NCBI GenBank assembly: GCA_934668765.1
Contig: CAKUOH010000007.1
Location: 27,814-91,813 of the forward strand
Length of the DNA: 64,000 nucleotides
From: an uncultured Helicobacteraceae bacterium
GTDB taxonomy: Bacteria > Campylobacterota > Campylobacteria > Campylobacterales > Helicobacteraceae
Reading direction: 5' to 3'
Under the pieces are notes generated by a model that saw only the letters and a list, made by a program, of their open reading frames with translations, was not told the origin of the DNA and did no database searches. Below, in pieces: positions 5,861 through 56,110 of this stretch. The position numbers were made by a program, and so were the translations under genes. The stretch's first letter is position 1. Every line of letters begins with the position of its first letter.

Positions 5861-7012
5861 TATCCATACTCCATTTTGTTGCTTTGAGTGTATTTTTTGA
5901 TATACCACTCTATGGTTTTTGCAATGCCTGATTCAAAGCTATGTTTTGGCTTCCAACCAAGTGTTTTTTGTAGCTTTGTAGAATCTATGGCATACCGCCT
6001 ATCGTGTCCCGCCCTATCTTTGACAAAGCGAATTTGCTTTGCGTAAGAATCTTTTTTGGGCATTCTTTTATCTAAGTAGGCGCAGATTTCCTTTGCAATA
6101 TCAATATTTTCTTTTTCTTCGTTGCCACCGATATTAAAGCACTCAAAAAAGACTTTGTTTTCATCAAAAATGCGTTGATTTTGGGGGCTGTTTTTGGGAT
6201 TTTCATTTAGCGATTCCCCCCCCCCCATTTGAATCTAGCGCGACAATTTTATCTCTCGCATACTCAAACACCGCGCAAATCGCATCGCAATGATCTTCCA
6301 CAAAAAGCCAGTCGCGCACATTTTTGCCATCGCCATAAATGGGGATTTCTTTGTCTAAAAGTGCGTTGCGGATAATGGTAGGGATAAGCTTTTCATCGTG
6401 TTGGTGCATTCCATAGTTGTTGGAGCAGTTTGTGATAATTGCGTGTAGTCCAAAAGTATGCGCATAACTTCGCACTATCATATCACTTGATGCTTTGGAC
6501 GCAGAATAAGGCGAATTTGGCGCATAAGGCGTTTTTTCGCTAAATTTGCCCATTGCCCCAAGTGTGCCATAGACTTCGTCCGTGCTTATGTGGTGAAAAA
6601 GCGCGTTTTCATAGCCTTTTTTGTGGCAAAACGGCGAATCTAACCAATGCTTATAAGCACAATTTAGTAGATTCCAAGTGCCATAGACATTAGTTTTGAT
6701 AAAGATTTCAGGGCTGTTGATAGAATTATCTACATGCGATTCTGCCGCAAAGTGAATCACACAATCGACATTATATTTTGCAAAAATCTCGCTAACTAAC
6801 GCACTATCACAAATGTCGCCTTGTATAAAATGATAGTTTTTATGCGCTTCAACGCTTTTTAGATTCTCTAAATTCCCCGCATAAGAGAGGCAATCCAAAT
6901 TGATAACCGTGCTATCTTTATCTGCGTATTTTGGCAAATAGTGGCGCAAAAAATACTCTATAAAATTGCTACCGATAAACCCCGCCCCGCCTGTGATTAA
7001 AATGCTTTTCAT
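5860..7012 (-). CDS. rfbB: dTDP-glucose 4,6-dehydratase, frame broken at poly-G tract
   Basis: Short-chain dehydrogenase-type enzyme converting dTDP-glucose to dTDP-4-keto-6-deoxyglucose. The N-terminal part (6203-7012, 269 aa) has the NAD-binding GGAGFIGSNF, the STDEVYG motif and the YSASK catalytic Tyr/Lys. The C-terminal part (5860-6228) resumes at FNIGGNEEKENI and FVKDRAGHDRRYAID. A run of 11 G on the coding strand lies between them and puts them out of frame; 10 or 13 G would give one protein of about 383 aa. The tract lies in a non-conserved linker of roughly 25 residues that makes the protein longer than usual family members. This has the form of a phase-variable switch, here OFF. rfbA follows upstream; rfbC/rfbD are absent from the window. 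Confidence 0.85.
6216..6226 (-). repeat. Homopolymeric G11 tract inside rfbB
   Basis: Eleven C on the plus strand (G on the coding strand), within the rfbB linker. Slipped-strand changes of length would toggle the downstream frame. The 3' flank reads AATCGCT, the same as the tract at 9903-9912. Confidence 0.9.
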
Positions 7013-9845: not shown

Positions 9846-10859
9846 TCGTTATTTTAGTCGAATCACTTGAATCAAATCTTGCAACATATACTAGCGAAAA
9901 ATGGGGGGGGGGAATCGCTTAATCTAATCCCGCGTTTGCAAAAAATCGCAAATGAAAATGTCAATTTTTCTATGTATAGCGGATTTGGTGGAATCAAACA
10001 AGTTTTTGGCACAGGTGGAACGATAAATGGGACAACTAGCTATCTATGTGGTATCCCGCTAAATCTACCCATACGCATTAACACTTTTGAGTCAAATAAA
10101 TATTTTTTAAGCGGGGCTACTTGCATTAGTGATATTTTGAATGATTTAGGCTATAAACAGGCATATTTTGGAAGTCAAGATGCAAAATTTGCTGGGACGG
10201 AAAATTTATTAAAAACACACAAAATCGAAGTGCTAGATTCAAAATACTTTGAATCCAAAGGGATTTTGCCTAAAAAATTACCGCCATCAATGAAAGGTGC
10301 TTGGGGCGCGAAAGACAGCGTGATTTTTGGTTTTGCAAAGGATTATTTGAATGCCGCAAATAAGCCTTTTGCATTGTATATTTCTACGCTTGATACGCAC
10401 GGACCGCAAGGCTTTGTAGATAAAGAGCAATGCCCAAATTTAGATAATTCTTATGAGAACGCGTATCTTTGCACAGATAAGGTTGTAAGCGACTTTATAG
10501 ATTATTTGCAAAATAGCAGATTCAAAGACAATACCACGATTATCATACTTGGCGACCATTTAAGTTCAGCGTATTTCATAAAAGCACCTATAATAAGTCG
10601 TAGCGTGTATAATGCCTTTATAAACGCAAAATGGACAAAAACTCCCACGCACAAGCTAATCAAAGGGCGCATTATAAGTCATTTTGATATAACGCCATTG
10701 ATTTTAGATTCTCTAGGGATTCGCGCTGAATCTTTTGGCTTGGGGCGTAATCCGCTTTATGGAAAAATGCTCATTGAAAGTGCGTTTAATATCGATAGTT
10801 TTAATGACGAGCTAAAACTTCGCAATAAAATCTATGATAGCCTTTGGGATGCAAAGTAG
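9830..10859 (+). pseudogene. LTA-synthase/phosphoethanolamine-transferase-like sulfatase, truncated and frameshifted
   Basis: Alkaline-phosphatase-superfamily domain. The first frame carries NLIVILVESLES, the metal- and nucleophile-region start of LtaS-type enzymes, and enters a run of 10 G at 9903. The rest of the enzyme (GTGGTINGTTS with the likely nucleophile Thr, YISTLDTHGP, IIILGDHLSS, HFDITPLILDSLG) is in another frame that could start from a weak TTG at 9867. Nine or twelve G would join the frames. The N-terminal membrane domain is missing, so even the joined form is incomplete. Intact homologues transfer phospho-substituents onto surface glycans or lipids. Confidence 0.75.
9903..9912 (+). 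repeat. Homopolymeric G10 tract in the sulfatase-like gene
   Basis: Ten G located between the two frames of the sulfatase domain, followed by AATCGCT exactly as in the rfbB tract. Likely slippage site. Confidence 0.9.
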
Positions 10860-13000: not shown

Positions 13001-13840
13001 GCCGTCATTGCAAGGCAAATCAGCGAATTACCAAAGCAATCCAAATCGCTCCAGTTCCGTCATTGCGAGATGTTGCGTCAGCAAAATCGTGGCAATCCAA
13101 ACCCCACGACTTTAAAATATAGATTCGCATAATGTCTTAAAGCTAAATCAAAATTAAATCTCCCATTTTCTTAAAATCTTTTAAGTGAATTTTAAATCAA
13201 AAGTTACTAAAATCCGCAAATATTTTTTGAAAATAAAAAGGGCAAAAGTTGAAATCAAATCTTAAATCACGCGAATCTTGCGAATCCACAAATAAAATCG
13301 CCAAACTCTCACGGGGGGGGGGATTTGGCTTTATTTAGCTGATTTAACCGCTCTATCCCAAACTTACACATTAAATCACAAAAATCCATTTTATTATTTC
13401 CCCCGCCCTTGCGGATGGGGATTAAGGGGGCGGGTAAGTCCTATCATTGCGAAACCTTGCGATAGCAAGACGAAACAATCTATAAATCAAATGCAAATAC
13501 AACCCCATCATTGCGAGATTTTCGCTAGAAAATCGAAGCAATCTATTTTAGCAACTCTTGAATCTTGTATGAATCACTTACTTTACGCGAATCTGTGGTT
13601 AGATTTATTGATTCGCTTTTGGGTCATTTATTTTCTTTATCTTTTAACAACTCGTGGCTTGGACTGTTTCGGCGACAAGTCGCCTCGCAATGACAGCAAA
13701 AATTCCCCCTCCCTTGCGGAGGGGGATAAAGGGGGCGGGTTAAAAACGCGAAAAAATAGTAGCACGAAATTTAGCAATAACGAATCTACCCACCCCCTGC
13801 ACCACCCTAGCGCAAGGGAGGGGAATTTTTTACTTCTATA
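13001..13840. repeat. Dispersed repeat cluster (A and B families)
   Basis: A gene-free kilobase (13001-14007). B-type segments at about 13006-13110 and 13440-13560 carry the cores CATTGCGAG, GAAGCAATC and TGGCAATCC. A elements occur at 13399-13437 and as an inverted pair at 13701-13740 and 13788-13832. The open frame at 13491-13841 is only a translation of these repeats. A short frame with a G10 tract lies at 13250-13342. The stretch 13841-14007 shows nothing beyond the ribosome-binding site of the next gene. Confidence 0.8.
13313..13322 (+). repeat. Homopolymeric G10 tract outside recognisable genes
   Basis: Lies in a short frame starting TTG 13250 with a purine-rich AAAAGGG upstream. After the tract one frame continues IWLYLADLTALSQTYTLN before dissolving into repeat A. 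This could be the stump of a lost phase-variable gene. Confidence 0.8.
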
Positions 13841-20351: not shown

Positions 20352-21995
20352 ATGCAAACAAGCAAAAATATCACGCGCGGAAGTATTTTAGATGAGAAAT
20401 CGGGGTTGCGAAGTTGTGAGCAAGGAAATAAGACTAATAGTCTATTGACGAAGCGAACAACAAGTCTCCCCGATTTATCGCTAAAAGACAAACGCGCATC
20501 GCCAAAAATCGGCATTGTAATCCCCATATATAATGTCGCTAAATATTTAAGGCAGTGTCTTGATTCTGTGCTAAATCAAACTTATGGCAATTTTCACGCA
20601 GTGCTTGTAAATGATGGAAGCAATGATATTTTAAGTGGCGAATCTAAAAATTCCCCCTCCCTTGCGGAGGGGGATAAAGGGGGTGGGTGCTATACACAAA
20701 ATATCAGCAATGCAAAATTTGCAAATAGTGATTTTACCCACCCCCTGCGCCACCCTAGCGCAAGGGAGGGGGAACAAAAGGCAGAATCCCTAAAAATCGC
20801 CCTAGAATATGTCGCAAAAGATGAGCGATTCGTGCTAATTGATAAAGCAAATGGAGGATTAAGCAGTGCTAGAAATGTGGGGATTGATTATTTTGCTAAT
20901 TCACTTGTAGGCAATTCGTCTTTGGGTATGCAATCCGCAGGATTTGCGAACAAAGCAATCCATACAAATAATTTAGATTGCCACGATTCTGCTAACACAA
21001 AATCTCGCAATGACGAATCTTATTCCCCCTCCATTGCTGATGGGACTAGGGGGTGGGTAATTTCTCCACAAATGACTTTTTACACACGCCCAAATCACAC
21101 AAATCTAAATCCACCCAAAATCGATTATATTATCTTTTTGGATTCAGATGACTTTTGGGAAGTGAATTTGCTTGAATCGTGCTTGGAATCTATGCAACAA
21201 AACGATAATCCAAATATTATTTGGTTTGATTGGCGCGAATCTTATGAATCTTATGAATCCAAAATATCTAAAAATCCCCACAGCCAAACTATGCTAGAGA
21301 TTTTTGGCTATGCGAATCCCACGCAAATAAATGCGATAGAGTGGCTAAATCACGCAAAAGATAAGCAAATCTATCAATTTTGGTGGGCGTGGCAGGGGTT
21401 AATCTGCTTTGAATATTTGAAGCGCGTGAATTTGCGCTTTTTAGAGGGCATAATTTTTGAAGATAATCTCTTTGGCATTTTGCTATTTTTGCAAAGCGAA
21501 TCAATCGCCATAATGCCACGCAAACTTTACAATTACCGCATTCGCGCAAATAGCACGACTACCATTGCCAAAAATACAAAATCTCTCCCGCCGTTTGTAG
21601 AGCCTTTGCGCGTGGCGCAGGGCGATTTGGCGTGGGGATATTTTTGCGCACAAAGCTTATGTGAGATAGCGTTGAGCGTTGCCACATTCTGCGAGACTTA
21701 CAAGGATAAAGAAAAGGCAAATCTATGCAAAGTGAATTTTTTGCCACATTTATTGGCTGAATCTTGCGATATTTTGCGCTTTAAGTGTGATATTTATAGC
21801 ACAAAGGCGCGATTCGTTAGGCTTTTAAAAAAAGAGCGCGAAAATTTGCAAATCTTACAAATCATTAGTTTTATCACGCCACGCGCATTTAAAGGGGTGC
21901 GATATTTTCTTTTTTTGCTTTGTATAAAGCCACAACTCGCAATCTTTCGCGCAATGCGAAAAATACGCAAGATTTTAGGGCTGTATCGTGGATAG
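20352..21995 (+). CDS. Family 2 glycosyltransferase with in-frame repeat insertions
   Basis: 547 aa, longer than usual for its class. GT-A core: PKIGIVIPIYNVAKYL at 51-66, LVNDGS at 85-90, GGLSSARNVGIDYF at 168-181, and DSDDFW (DXD metal site) at 264-269. Two stretches, about residues 96-143 and 187-243, are translations of the dispersed repeats A and B and split the conserved core; removing them gives a normal spacing. The first 50 residues also come from a palindromic element. ATG follows AAGGAAAAT. The frame is intact throughout, so the enzyme may still work on a surface polysaccharide. Overlaps thiL by 8 nt. Confidence 0.85.
   Translation: MQTSKNITRGSILDEKSGLRSCEQGNKTNSLLTKRTTSLPDLSLKDKRASPKIGIVIPIYNVAKYLRQCLDSVLNQTYGNFHAVLVNDGSNDILSGESKNSPSLAEGDKGGGCYTQNISNAKFANSDFTHPLRHPSAREGEQKAESLKIALEYVAKDERFVLIDKANGGLSSARNVGIDYFANSLVGNSSLGMQSAGFANKAIHTNNLDCHDSANTKSRNDESYSPSIADGTRGWVISPQMTFYTRPNHTNLNPPKIDYIIFLDSDDFWEVNLLESCLESMQQNDNPNIIWFDWRESYESYESKISKNPHSQTMLEIFGYANPTQINAIEWLNHAKDKQIYQFWWAWQGLICFEYLKRVNLRFLEGIIFEDNLFGILLFLQSESIAIMPRKLYNYRIRANSTTTIAKNTKSLPPFVEPLRVAQGDLAWGYFCAQSLCEIALSVATFCETYKDKEKANLCKVNFLPHLLAESCDILRFKCDIYSTKARFVRLLKKERENLQILQIISFITPRAFKGVRYFLFLLCIKPQLAIFRAMRKIRKILGLYRG
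20391..20482. repeat. Palindromic element in glycosyltransferase N-terminus
   Basis: Arms AAATCGGGG (20397-20405) and CCCCGATTT (20468-20476) enclose an inner palindrome AGACTAATAGTCT (20431-20443). It encodes residues ~14-43, upstream of where family members normally begin. Confidence 0.55.
20638..20775. repeat. Repeat A inverted pair inside glycosyltransferase
   Basis: Forward copy 20650-20689 (CTCCCTTGCGGAGGGGGAT... GGGGGTGGGT) and a variant inverted copy 20737-20772 (CACCCCCTGCGCCACCC... GCGCAAGGGAGGGGG), 47 nt apart, read in frame as SPSLAEGDKGGG and THPLRHPSAREGE. The same pair architecture recurs at 13701-13832. Confidence 0.85.
20905..21062. repeat. Repeat B plus A inside glycosyltransferase
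   Basis: B segment at 20910-21020 (shares GCAATCCGCAGGATTTG with the copy near 41960 and GATTGCCACGATT with 63925) followed by an A copy at 21020-21060 read as SPSIADGTRGWV. The whole 150 nt is free of stops in the gene's frame. Confidence 0.8.
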
Positions 21996-28399: not shown

Positions 28400-29376
28400 T
28401 ATTTTATTCCATTTTCTAGTAATTTTTCGCGGATAAAATTCATTTGCACATTTTTATCAAAGCACCACTCTGGCGCAATCAAACTATCATCGTGCACACC
28501 TGCGGAGACGCGCTGGACTACGACATTTTCAGGGATTTGTTTTAGCGATTCCACAATCAAATCTGTGTAAGATTCAAGGCTTATGGGCGTGTATTTTCCA
28601 CCCTTAAACATTTGCTCCAAAGGCGTTTCACGCACAATATAAAGCGGGTGAATCTTAATGCCATCAATGCCCCACGATAGGACATTTTTTAGCGATTCCA
28701 TCATCATTTCTTTGCTCTCTTTTGGCAGTCCATAAATCAAATGAACGCAGACTTTTATCCCCAAAGCGCGTGTTTTTTGCACTAACTCTTTTGCGCCTTC
28801 AATGCCGTGAGCGCGATTTATAAGGCGCAGGGTTTGATTAAATGTCGATTGAATGCCGTATTCTAGCCAAATATCATTGCCATTTTGCACCTGCTTTGCT
28901 AGAAATTCTAGCACCGCATCTTCTATGCAATCAATCCTTGTGCCAATGGATAATCCCACGACATTTGGGAGATTCAAAGCCTCGCTATATAATCGCTCCA
29001 AAGTCGCATAAGGTGCGTAAGTATTGCTAAAAGATTGAAAATAAATCATATATTTTGTGATTTTGTATTTGTCTTTGTGATAATTTGCGTGTTTGTGATA
29101 TTGCGCTTTTAGCGTGGAGACTTGCGAATCTAAAAGCGGATTTTCAGTCAAATAAAAATTCATAAAAATATTATTTTTGGAGGAATCTTGTGTGATTTCT
29201 TTTAGCGTCTGTAAAGATGGCGAAAAACTTTCATTTTTACAATAAATGCACCCGCCTTTTGCCTTCTCCCCGTCAATATTTGGGCAAGTAAAGCCTTGCA
29301 GAGAAATAGGGATTTTGCGCACACGAGTGCCAAAACGCGCCCGAAAATATCGCCCAATGGTTAGAATCTGCTTCAA
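28396..29376 (-). CDS. TIGR01212-family radical SAM protein
   Basis: 326 aa. The Fe-S motif lies in FTCPNIDGEKAKGGCIYC, where the first Cys is separated by 11 residues from a C-x2-C pair; this extended spacing marks the YhcC/TIGR01212 family related to the Elp3 N-terminus. LEYGIQSTFNQTLRLINRAH and LIYGLPKE are further family segments. Biochemical role unknown. Coupled by 4-nt overlaps to purF and thiE. Confidence 0.88.
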   Translation of the reverse strand: MKQILTIGRYFRARFGTRVRKIPISLQGFTCPNIDGEKAKGGCIYCKNESFSPSLQTLKEITQDSSKNNIFMNFYLTENPLLDSQVSTLKAQYHKHANYHKDKYKITKYMIYFQSFSNTYAPYATLERLYSEALNLPNVVGLSIGTRIDCIEDAVLEFLAKQVQNGNDIWLEYGIQSTFNQTLRLINRAHGIEGAKELVQKTRALGIKVCVHLIYGLPKESKEMMMESLKNVLSWGIDGIKIHPLYIVRETPLEQMFKGGKYTPISLESYTDLIVESLKQIPENVVVQRVSAGVHDDSLIAPEWCFDKNVQMNFIREKLLENGIKY

Positions 29377-30950
29377 ATAACATAATCCTTATCAAAACAA
29401 GCTCTGCAATAGCCATCGCCATTTTCTATGCCTATGCTTTTATAAAGTCCATTTAGTGAGAGAAAATGTAGCGAATCCGCGCCGATAAACGCGCAAACTT
29501 CATCTTGGCTCTTATTGGCGCAAATGAGTTGTGATGAATCAGGCGTATCCACGCCATAATAGCAAGGCGCAATGGTTTGTGGCGAAGCGATGATAAGATG
29601 AATCTTTTTTGCCCCTGCCTTGCGGAGAATGCTAATGATTTGTTTGCTTGTTGTCCCGCGCACAATGCTATCATCAATGATGATTATATCTTTGCCTGTG
29701 ATTAGCTTTTCGATGGGATTTAATTTTAGCTTGACTTTTAGCTCACGCATTGATTGCGTAGGCTCAATGAATGTGCGCCCTATGTAGTGATTGCGCACGA
29801 TGCCAAACTCAAATGGAATGCCACTTTCTTGCGCATAGCCGATTGCCGAAATCACGCCTGAATCTGGCACGGGAATGACAAAATCCGCACTTATTTTATG
29901 CTCTCTTGCAAGTTCTACGCCCATATTTTTGCGAATCTCATAGACGCTTTTGCCAAAGACAAAGCTATCAGGACGCGCAAAATAGACAAATTCAAAAATG
30001 CAGTGCTTTGGAGTGGGCGGGAAAACTTGGATTGATTCGATTGTGGCGGTAAATTCGTCTTGTGGCGATAAATCAGAGGATTCTACCCACCCTCTATCCC
30101 CATCCGCAAGGGAGGGGGGATTTTTGGATTGCTTTGCGCGAATCTGCGATTCGTCTCGCAATGGTGATTCTATCGAATCGGCAATTCTAGTATTTTGCGT
30201 AAGAGACGAATTGTCCGACTTTAAGCTAAATATTACCATTTCGCCGGGGTTAATATCTCGCACAAATCTAGCACCGATTAAATCAAACGCACAAGTTTCA
30301 CTTGCCACGATATAGCCCTTGCTTCCGTCATCATTTGTAATTTCTCCCAAACTCAATGGACGAAATCCAAACGGGTCGCGAATCGCAAAGAGTTTGCCAC
30401 GACTTAATAGCACAAATGAATACGCGCCTTTTATGCGTTGGAGTGATTCGATGATTCTATCCCGCAGTCGCTCTTTTTTGCTTCGTGCGATTAGGTGGAT
30501 TAGATTTTCTGTATCAAGGTGGCTTTGGAAAATCGCGCCTTTGGTGGTAAGTGATTTGCGCACTTCTTTTGCATTTACTAGGTTGCCATTGTGCGCTAAT
30601 GCGATTTCGCCAAGCGCGTATTTGGCAAAAATGGGTTGCACATCGCATTTGGAATCTTCCCCTGCGGTTGAGTAGCGATTATGCCCGATACTTGCACTTC
30701 CTTTGAGTGCGTCTAATCCGCCTTTGAAAATAGAAGTAACTAATCCTTCGCCTTTTATGGTGGTGATTTTGCGTCCGTCTGTGGTAGAAATTCCGCTAGA
30801 TTCTTGCCCTCTATGCTGCATTGCGAAAAGCGCGTAGTAGCAGAGTGCAGCACTACGATTCGCGTTAAAAATGCCCACAACGGCGCATTTTTCGTTAGGC
30901 GATTCGCGAAATTCAAAAGAGTTGTGCGATTTATCGTTAGATTTTTTCAT
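29373..30950 (-). CDS. purF: Amidophosphoribosyltransferase with inserted repeat
   Basis: 525 aa. First committed step of purine synthesis: PRPP plus glutamine to phosphoribosylamine. After a short propeptide the N-terminal nucleophile is the Cys of KCAVVGIF (residue 22); QHRGQESSGI, GHNRYST and the PRPP loop IIIIDDSIVRGTTS are intact. Between VIFSL and VFPPTPKHCIFEF (about residues 240-290) lies a Ser/Asp-rich insert translated from repeats B and A (NPPSLADGDRGW); this explains most of the extra length over ordinary PurF (~450-470 aa). Downstream of dapB by 8 nt. Confidence 0.95.
   Translation of the reverse strand: MKKSNDKSHNSFEFRESPNEKCAVVGIFNANRSAALCYYALFAMQHRGQESSGISTTDGRKITTIKGEGLVTSIFKGGLDALKGSASIGHNRYSTAGEDSKCDVQPIFAKYALGEIALAHNGNLVNAKEVRKSLTTKGAIFQSHLDTENLIHLIARSKKERLRDRIIESLQRIKGAYSFVLLSRGKLFAIRDPFGFRPLSLGEITNDDGSKGYIVASETCAFDLIGARFVRDINPGEMVIFSLKSDNSSLTQNTRIADSIESPLRDESQIRAKQSKNPPSLADGDRGWVESSDLSPQDEFTATIESIQVFPPTPKHCIFEFVYFARPDSFVFGKSVYEIRKNMGVELAREHKISADFVIPVPDSGVISAIGYAQESGIPFEFGIVRNHYIGRTFIEPTQSMRELKVKLKLNPIEKLITGKDIIIIDDSIVRGTTSKQIISILRKAGAKKIHLIIASPQTIAPCYYGVDTPDSSQLICANKSQDEVCAFIGADSLHFLSLNGLYKSIGIENGDGYCRACFDKDYVI
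30075..30190. repeat. Repeat A plus B inside purF
   Basis: Plus-strand ACCCACCCTCTATCCCCAT and CCGCAAGGGAGGGGGG (30089-30121) form an A element; TTGCTTTGCGCGAATCTGC and CGTCTCGCAATGG (30127-30168) are B-like. Free of stops in the purF frame. Confidence 0.85.
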
Positions 30951-41861: not shown

Positions 41862-42193
41862 GGCAATTCATCTTTGGGTGCATTTTGCGTAGATTTGGGG
41901 ATTTTTGAGTGTGAGAGTCTGCGAGCACTCGAAAATCCCCAAAAACTCCACAACTTCCACCGCAATCCGCAGGATTTGTGAGCGAAGCGAAGCAATCAAT
42001 ACTAGAATTTGTTTATAAAGCAACGCAGAATCGTGGCAATCCAAAAAATAAAATCCACACGAAGTGTGAATCTATATAAAAGTTTTTGCTTCGTTTTGCT
42101 TTCGCAAAAAGTAGAATCTCTCTACCATTAGACTCTAATCTACCAAGCAAGGTAAATCGCATTTAGATTTACCCTTGCTAGAAAGCCCAAATT
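41862..42193. repeat. Dispersed repeat B region after icd
   Basis: 332 nt without a gene. GGCAATTCATCTTTGGGT (41872) and GCAATCCGCAGGATTTG (41962) recur in the glycosyltransferase insertion; GCAACGCAGAATCGTGGCAAT (42021-42040) is another B core. The left arm of the island-flanking inverted repeat follows at 42050. Confidence 0.75.
42050..42119. repeat. Island-flanking inverted repeat, left arm
   Basis: 70 nt whose reverse complement recurs at 46022-46092, with a 29-nt identical core and an internal CACGAAGTG/CACTTCGTG palindrome. Encloses about 3.9 kb of accessory genes. Confidence 0.8.
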
Positions 42194-45770: not shown

Positions 45771-46019
45771 GTGAATCAAAAAGTAATAGATGAATTTTTC
45801 GATGAAATCGTGGCAAATGTCAAGCGTGAGCGACTAGCACGAGGCATTTCTCAACTAGCATTAGCGCAGATTTTGGGGCATAAGTCGCCAAACTATATCG
45901 CAAAGATTGAGACACGCAAACACGGCGTGTGCTACAATCTGCACCACCTTTTCATCATTGCCACCGAATTTGATATGGACATAAGGGACTTGCTACCCGA
46001 TACAAAGGAAATAAAATAG
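45771..46019 (+). CDS. XRE-family HTH transcriptional regulator
   Basis: 82 aa from GTG at 45771 with AAGGTGG directly upstream; an ATG at 45747 lacks a ribosome-binding site and lies within the -10 region. The domain is a Cro/C1 helix-turn-helix: RERLARGISQLALAQILGHK then SPNYIAKIETRKHG. It probably autoregulates and represses the divergent island genes via the palindrome at 45703 (inference). Confidence 0.8.
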   Translation: MNQKVIDEFFDEIVANVKRERLARGISQLALAQILGHKSPNYIAKIETRKHGVCYNLHHLFIIATEFDMDIRDLLPDTKEIK

Positions 46020-46021
46020 TG

Positions 46022-46092
46022 GGATTCTTCGTTTTGCAAAAGCAAAACGAAGCAAAAACTTTTATATTGATTCGCACTTCGTGCGGATTTTA
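46022..46092. repeat. Island-flanking inverted repeat, right arm
   Basis: Inverted counterpart of 42050-42119 (GCAAAACGAAGC core, then CACTTCGTG). Begins 3 nt after the XRE stop and ends 45 nt before the macroglobulin stop. Confidence 0.8.
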
Positions 46093-46136
46093 TTTGTTTT
46101 AGATTCAAGCGATTCGCAAAAAGACAAATGCGCTTT

Positions 46137-55959: not shown

Positions 55960-56110
55960 ACAACGATTCGTCATTGCGAGATGAATCGCAGATTCTGCGT
56001 GGCAATCTATTTTGGATTTGTAGATTGCCGCACTCGCTTCGCTAGTTTGCAATGACGCGGTTTTTGTTTTTTTGGATTCTTCGCTACGCTTAATAATGAC
56101 GAAAATTAAA
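55960..56110. repeat. Dispersed repeat B, palindromic
   Basis: CGTCATTGCGAGATGAATCG ... GCAATCTATTTTGGA with the inverted TAGATTGCCGCACTCGC ... GCAATGACGCGG; B family, intergenic between the OMP relic and bioA. Confidence 0.8.

Follow-up and report, generated by a model that had tools for sequence, protein, structure and literature searches.

The purF gene occupies positions 29373..30950 on the reverse strand of the window, by which we mean the whole stretch of DNA analysed (64,000 nucleotides), and encodes a protein of 525 aa with matches to the Pfam families GATase_6/7 and Pribosyltran. Both domains, an N-terminal Cys, the PRPP motif and a fold match are all present, which identifies the product as PurF. 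Cys22 (codon 30885..30887, reverse strand), which we take to be the conserved N-terminal nucleophile, is invariant in both of the alignments made, and residues 422-438 (29637..29687, reverse strand), the region of IIIDDSIVRGTTSKQI as located from the alignments, presumably form the PRPP-binding motif, most residues of which are invariant or nearly so in the two alignments. The preliminary description of this DNA had held the catalytic and PRPP motifs to be intact and the protein to be 55-70 residues longer than normal, and both statements stand, the protein having 66 residues more than the 459 aa of insert-free relatives. About 14 of these residues precede Cys22 and 52-54 lie in the linker, with small differences elsewhere.

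The N-terminal extension (residues 1-19; 30894..30950, reverse strand) varies among relatives, and the segment before the catalytic Cys is a second site of expansion, rich in ES/DS (relatives P0005-P0012, P0018, P0123 and P0124), which reaches up to 66 residues in P0018 and is longer still in P0123 and P0124. Certain PurFs are synthesised with a propeptide that is then cleaved off; if such cleavage holds here, the mature enzyme would be rid of its N-terminal expansions.

The larger part of the excess lies in a long linker between the glutaminase and PRTase domains (residues 243-308; 30027..30224, reverse strand), which alignments and repeat models together mark as a recurrent insertion site and which holds two repeats in frame. 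The A element (30125..30170, reverse strand) is a divergent copy of a REP-like hairpin and the B element (30079..30121, reverse strand) represents a single arm of a MITE-like palindrome; on the coding strand of purF A is followed by B, and they read SPLRDESQIRAKQSK-NPPSLADGDRGWVES, corresponding to residues ~262-291 (30 aa). The earlier proposal that the excess consists of A plus B is therefore right in part: both elements lie inside 30075..30190, but together they encode only ~30 of the 66 extra residues, and ~22-24 residues of the linker excess belong to neither, being DS/ES-rich sequence.

Searched against the 64-kb window with models built without the purF copies, the B copy was recovered with an E-value of 2.8e-11, whereas the A copy, whose held-out model also omitted the copy at 13004, was recovered at just 0.012; its nearest neighbour is the copy at 55965-56007 (E-value 0.0019). 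Because of this difference in the held-out E-values we regard B as firm and A as likely. Iterated nhmmer searches of the window recovered 9 B and 8 A copies, and a later model 9 B and 11 A copies. B and, with weaker statistics, A in purF thus belong to dispersed repeat families. The part of the linker adjoining A, Dw, has one further match in the window, a weak one (E-value 0.0092), and an Rfam scan of the window returned no family at gathering score. A role for the insert at the level of RNA was considered and rejected, as A and B combined fold no better than shuffled sequences (z -1.25); singly, the purF elements have shuffle z values of -0.06 (B) and -2.36 (A).

Sequence comparison places the insert between residues ~229 and 236 of Bacillus subtilis PurF (PDB identifier 1gph). 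An AlphaFold2 run with 29 close sequences gave a poor model (mean pLDDT 51.8), which was set aside, and the model used here was obtained with 82 sequences (mean pLDDT 83.9, pTM 0.80). Its best PDB match in Foldseek is B. subtilis PurF (PDB identifier 1ao0) with a TMt of 0.91. Residues 251-295 (30066..30200, reverse strand), situated between strands 237-243 and 302-308, are predicted to be disordered, with pLDDT below 50 and block means of ~36-40. The insert is accordingly modelled as a floppy loop on an otherwise normal fold. It is likely tolerated, since the intact motifs and the predicted fold both suggest that function has been kept.

The linker among PurF relatives

We compared 121 PurF proteins, consisting of the window's own and the best 120 of 8,000 scored candidates. 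Of the 121, 91 allowed the linker, defined by the GEMVIF strand on one side and CIFEF on the other, to be parsed; it is 17-30 residues long in 75 of these and 57-126 in the remaining 16, and in the window's protein it has 75 residues. With lengths of 445-478 aa, the 30 unparsed proteins are unlikely to contain a large insert. The preliminary description had named the occurrence of the segment in PurF of distant genera as the observation that would speak against an insertion; what is found instead is a linker of just 17-25 residues in all 34 aligned proteins from outside Helicobacteraceae. Long linkers do occur in more than one Helicobacter lineage, as might be expected if a long linker were ancestral and had been deleted in most relatives, but the short linkers of the other families, together with the fact that the long linkers are mutually unlike, make such a history highly improbable.

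The relatives carry different inserts at the same site. One of them, P0002, is 98% identical, has the same insert and belongs to a cluster with 45 members. The B peptide (SPSLAEGxRGWVE) is found at the same place and in the same frame in P0003 and P0004, without the A peptide. In P0005 (Helicobacter sp. 23-1044) both the A and B peptides are missing and the downstream PQDEF..TIESIQ is retained, and in P0013, P0017 and P0019-P0022 the linkers have 21-23 residues. The insert of P0007 is a third element, C, matching the N-terminal part of a glycosyltransferase encoded in the window (tblastn E-value 2.4e-13), and that of P0010 contains an A-like peptide (E-value 7.8e-5). The linker of H. saguini PurF is ~107 residues long, and part of its DNA matches positions 20399-20472 of the window in reverse (E-value 3.4e-4). 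Between P0123 and P0124, 5 of the 452 core residues are different, yet their linkers have 60 and 7 residues, respectively, and their N-terminal arrays differ too. In P0164, P0166 and P0170-P0172 the linkers are 49-59 residues long, with few DS/ES and no recognised element, indicating that linkers also grow otherwise.

Judged by these sequence comparisons, the PurF linker is an insertion hot spot, with relatives bearing B, an A-like element, C or nothing. The insertion in the window's PurF is real and lineage-specific, and places repeats of mobile type in a core enzyme. Several of the relatives come from short contigs, a circumstance that would leave room for an assembly artefact; given P0002 and its cluster, and given a single open frame with conserved catalytic residues, such an artefact, or a pseudogene, is barely credible.

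Anatomy and dispersal of the repeats

Inverted B arms form palindromes, two of which are complete in the window: one of 125 nt (20650..20774, forward strand; z -8.70), in frame in the glycosyltransferase ORF 20352-21995, and one of 126 nt (13702..13827, forward strand; z -6.08), outside annotated-like genes. H. saguini has nine inverted B pairs spanning 122-187 nt. The terminal inverted arms of MITEs, enclosing a short non-coding interior, are thus seen in both, the purF copy being a single arm; inspection of B flanks by eye identified no target-site duplication. B is also poor in stop codons, with 3-6 open frames in 59 H. saguini copies against a mean of 2.96 for random 39-mers.

The A element is a hairpin, TCATTGCGAG...GCAATCCA, with a CGTC or TGTC tag in 7 of 11 copies in the window, 26 of 28 in H. 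saguini and 41 of 45 in the genome G057; the purF copy has CACC instead. Its consensus stem begins with AT and comprises 12 pairs interrupted by an internal loop (5 + ~7), so that the stem of 8-9 bp with a loop of 4-5 that marks CGTC-tagged REPs is not found, and the unpaired tail in the window is CCA in 6 of 11 copies and CTA in 5. Owing to the interrupted stem and the CACC of the purF copy, we call A REP-like and do not file it as a member.

The same glycosyltransferase gene carries C (20399..20472, forward strand), the B...B' palindrome, and then A in antisense followed by B in sense (20974..21060, forward strand, from the repeat models), all of them in frame, and its Glycos_transf_2 match falls in two stretches. 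The C peptide is the one shared with the insert in P0007, and the C DNA is the sequence found reversed in the purF linker of H. saguini. Among other features of the window are long runs of C or G at 6205-6230, 9898-9923 and 13310-13325, some of them at the ends or starts of ORFs, which are possible phase-variable tracts, and an 82-nt inverted repeat pair (42043-42124 and 46017-46098, 89% complementary) that showed no relation to the purF insert in the checks made.

Across 121 Helicobacteraceae genomes, B was found in 14 (E-value 0.01 or better) and A in 41 (E-value 0.001 or better); about 52-54 candidates were scored per genome, so the copy numbers of both are lower bounds. One of these genomes, G046, is here called H. 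saguini, its PurF being identical to that of a record under this name, and was sampled in 38 stretches picked for A or B matches. These contain the 59 B copies mentioned above, of which 54 lie away from the ends of the stretches, and 53 of the 54 are inside ORFs of at least 180 aa, against 86% of random 40-mers. A is not enriched in such ORFs (20 of 26 copies in H. saguini and 30 of 41 in G057, against 86-87% of random 40-mers). By the longest ORF, the B copies of H. saguini are read in all three sense frames (12/11/7) and in two of the three antisense frames (12/15), with none for 2 copies.

All 41 B-host ORFs of H. saguini were scanned against Pfam (E-values up to 1e-3 for part of them and 1e-6 for the rest) and 33 have a domain. 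As read from these domains, the hosts include homologues of PolA (DNA polymerase I), MetG, LysA, an IlvB-type enzyme and a Mur ligase, and further of a PBP2-like transpeptidase, a P-type ATPase, SerA, PheT, DnaX and PEP carboxylase. In LysA, for example, the insert corresponds to an unaligned stretch (136-171) in comparison with PDB identifier 2qgh. The numbers of B copies in ORFs and of hosts with a Pfam domain bear out the earlier suggestion that the repeats can spread in frame through coding DNA. At one H. saguini locus, L122 (G046:C15:33500-38497), similar glycosyltransferase ORFs that lie near one another and contain B inserts look split and overlapping, and perhaps, therefore, not every insertion is tolerated.

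The recurrence of the B peptide in frame in P0001-P0004 might be taken to mean that the insert is an adaptive module with a function of its own, be it in regulation, localisation or binding. We consider this very unlikely, as this site in close relatives holds inserts of unrelated sequence or is empty, the insert is predicted to be disordered and the same peptides occur in unrelated proteins.

GAWTC words, proposed origin and known systems

The 5-mer GATTC/GAATC is the most over-represented in the window (414 occurrences against 261 expected), where GACTC/GAGTC is depleted. A longer word built on it, AGATTCGC, has 57 copies in the window, with 11.8 expected and 0 in the reversed control. The corresponding words are TTAGATTCTATA in H. 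saguini, with 2,030 exact copies against 6 in the reversed control, and AGTGGATTCTAG in G057, with 1,311 against 0; they occur on both strands about equally (972/1,058 in H. saguini and 637/674 in G057). For the window-like word TTAGATTCGC, counts above the control are found in two of 14 genomes, G003 (70 vs 25) and G001 (34 vs 4), and not in the other 12. Great over-representation with lineage dialects, as expected of uptake sequences, is thus found for the GAWTC words, and by analogy they resemble uptake-sequence dialects.

These words offer another account of the long linker, namely that it grew mainly by import and duplication of uptake-like GAWTC words through transformation, A and B being passengers that landed in the arrays. 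Besides the vast excess of the exact words over their reversed controls, the account draws on the density of GAWTC, which is higher in the purF linker both in the window (5 in 165 nt against 13 in 1,414 elsewhere, p 0.033) and in H. saguini (8 in 312 nt against 6 in 1,480, p 0.0009), and also, in H. saguini, around B (7.6 per 300 nt) and A (6.1), against 3.0. Long linkers are likewise rich in DS/ES dipeptides (127 per 1,815 residues, against 198 per 9,643 in the cores). The p-value for the window is marginal, however, the sequence of B itself is left unexplained, and a literature search in which subscription journals were thinly covered found no such uptake system, nor any mention, for Helicobacter, of uptake words or of palindromes lying in frame. 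Moreover, the GAWTC motif is present in the interior of every one of the nine inverted B pairs in H. saguini, so the arrays may come with B. On balance we regard growth of the linker by imported words as rather unlikely.

The interpretation we favour, and hold with good confidence, is that the long linker contains, at an inter-domain loop, two repeats read in frame, the REP-like A element and B, a single arm of a MITE-like palindrome. Transposition most likely brought them there, and they are likely retained because the peptide they add is predicted to be a disordered loop. The dispersion of the elements, their inverted arms and their presence or absence among relatives lead us to infer insertion in trans by an enzyme that acts on A and B. 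Landing would be roughly random, the scarcity of stop codons in B would raise the share of harmless landings, and selection against frameshifts and disruption of cores would leave copies in loops and linkers, such that a tolerated insert may let DNA of this kind spread inside working genes. The only transposase family sought was RAYT, for which a model exceeded the cut-off in none of the 121 Helicobacteraceae genomes. As a mobiliser RAYT was rejected, 10 of its 11 weak matches being in genomes without A matches; the best of the weak matches (E-value 4.9e-17) is in G119, which carries A and B. A broader reading, possible though somewhat doubtful, is that in Helicobacter uptake-like GAWTC dialects, together with in-frame REP/MITE palindromes that carry them or land in them, remodel proteins across the proteome, with the PurF linker and the N-terminal extension as two of the landing sites.

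The GAWTC words are similar to the DNA uptake sequence dialects of Neisseriaceae in having a short core, lineage extensions, hundreds to thousands of exact copies and a near balance between the strands, though the core is unrelated to the Neisseriaceae word as described in PMC3630211. If they prove to be uptake sequences, this would be a further and larger discovery. B is comparable to MITEs such as NEMIS and RUP, having terminal inverted arms, a length of 120-190 nt and no coding capacity for a transposase, but differs from these as characterised in PMC2229807 in that its H. saguini copies are mostly inside ORFs. The CGTC-tagged REPs described in PMC3733652, whose main text leaves Helicobacter unmentioned, have a CGTC terminus that is frequently replaced by TGTC or CCTC, an 8-9 bp stem starting with AT, a loop of 4-5 and an unpaired CCA tail. 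A is like them in its tag, the AT start of its stem, the lack of a dedicated transposase and its sometimes intragenic location, and unlike them in its interrupted stem and in the CACC of the purF copy.

Palindromic repeats lying in frame within protein genes have been described from Rickettsia and Wolbachia and from some species rich in REPs (PMC2229807, PMC3733652). The Rickettsia palindromic elements (RPEs) are dispersed palindromes of 105-146 bp that occur in intergenic DNA and in frame in conserved genes, and are presumed in these accounts to be neutral or slightly harmful to the enzyme (PMC2229807, PMC10969869). The Helicobacter elements, likewise found in frame in conserved genes and between genes, are likened to them by their way of working, and A shares its CGTC tag with RPE-4 and RPE-6 (PMC3733652). 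They differ from the RPEs in belonging to another phylum and, as far as the published descriptions of RPEs go, in sequence, and also in that one linker is struck by several element types, that B is read in five frames and that GAWTC words are dense around the copies. The same way of working would operate in Helicobacter, with one linker struck repeatedly and dozens of H. saguini genes bearing copies; if this is true, the questions of how functional enzymes gain peptide from mobile DNA, and why this is permitted in some lineages, could be studied in a culturable system. Rickettsia provides the precedent for this way of working; the host group, the extent and the recurrence at one site are unusual.
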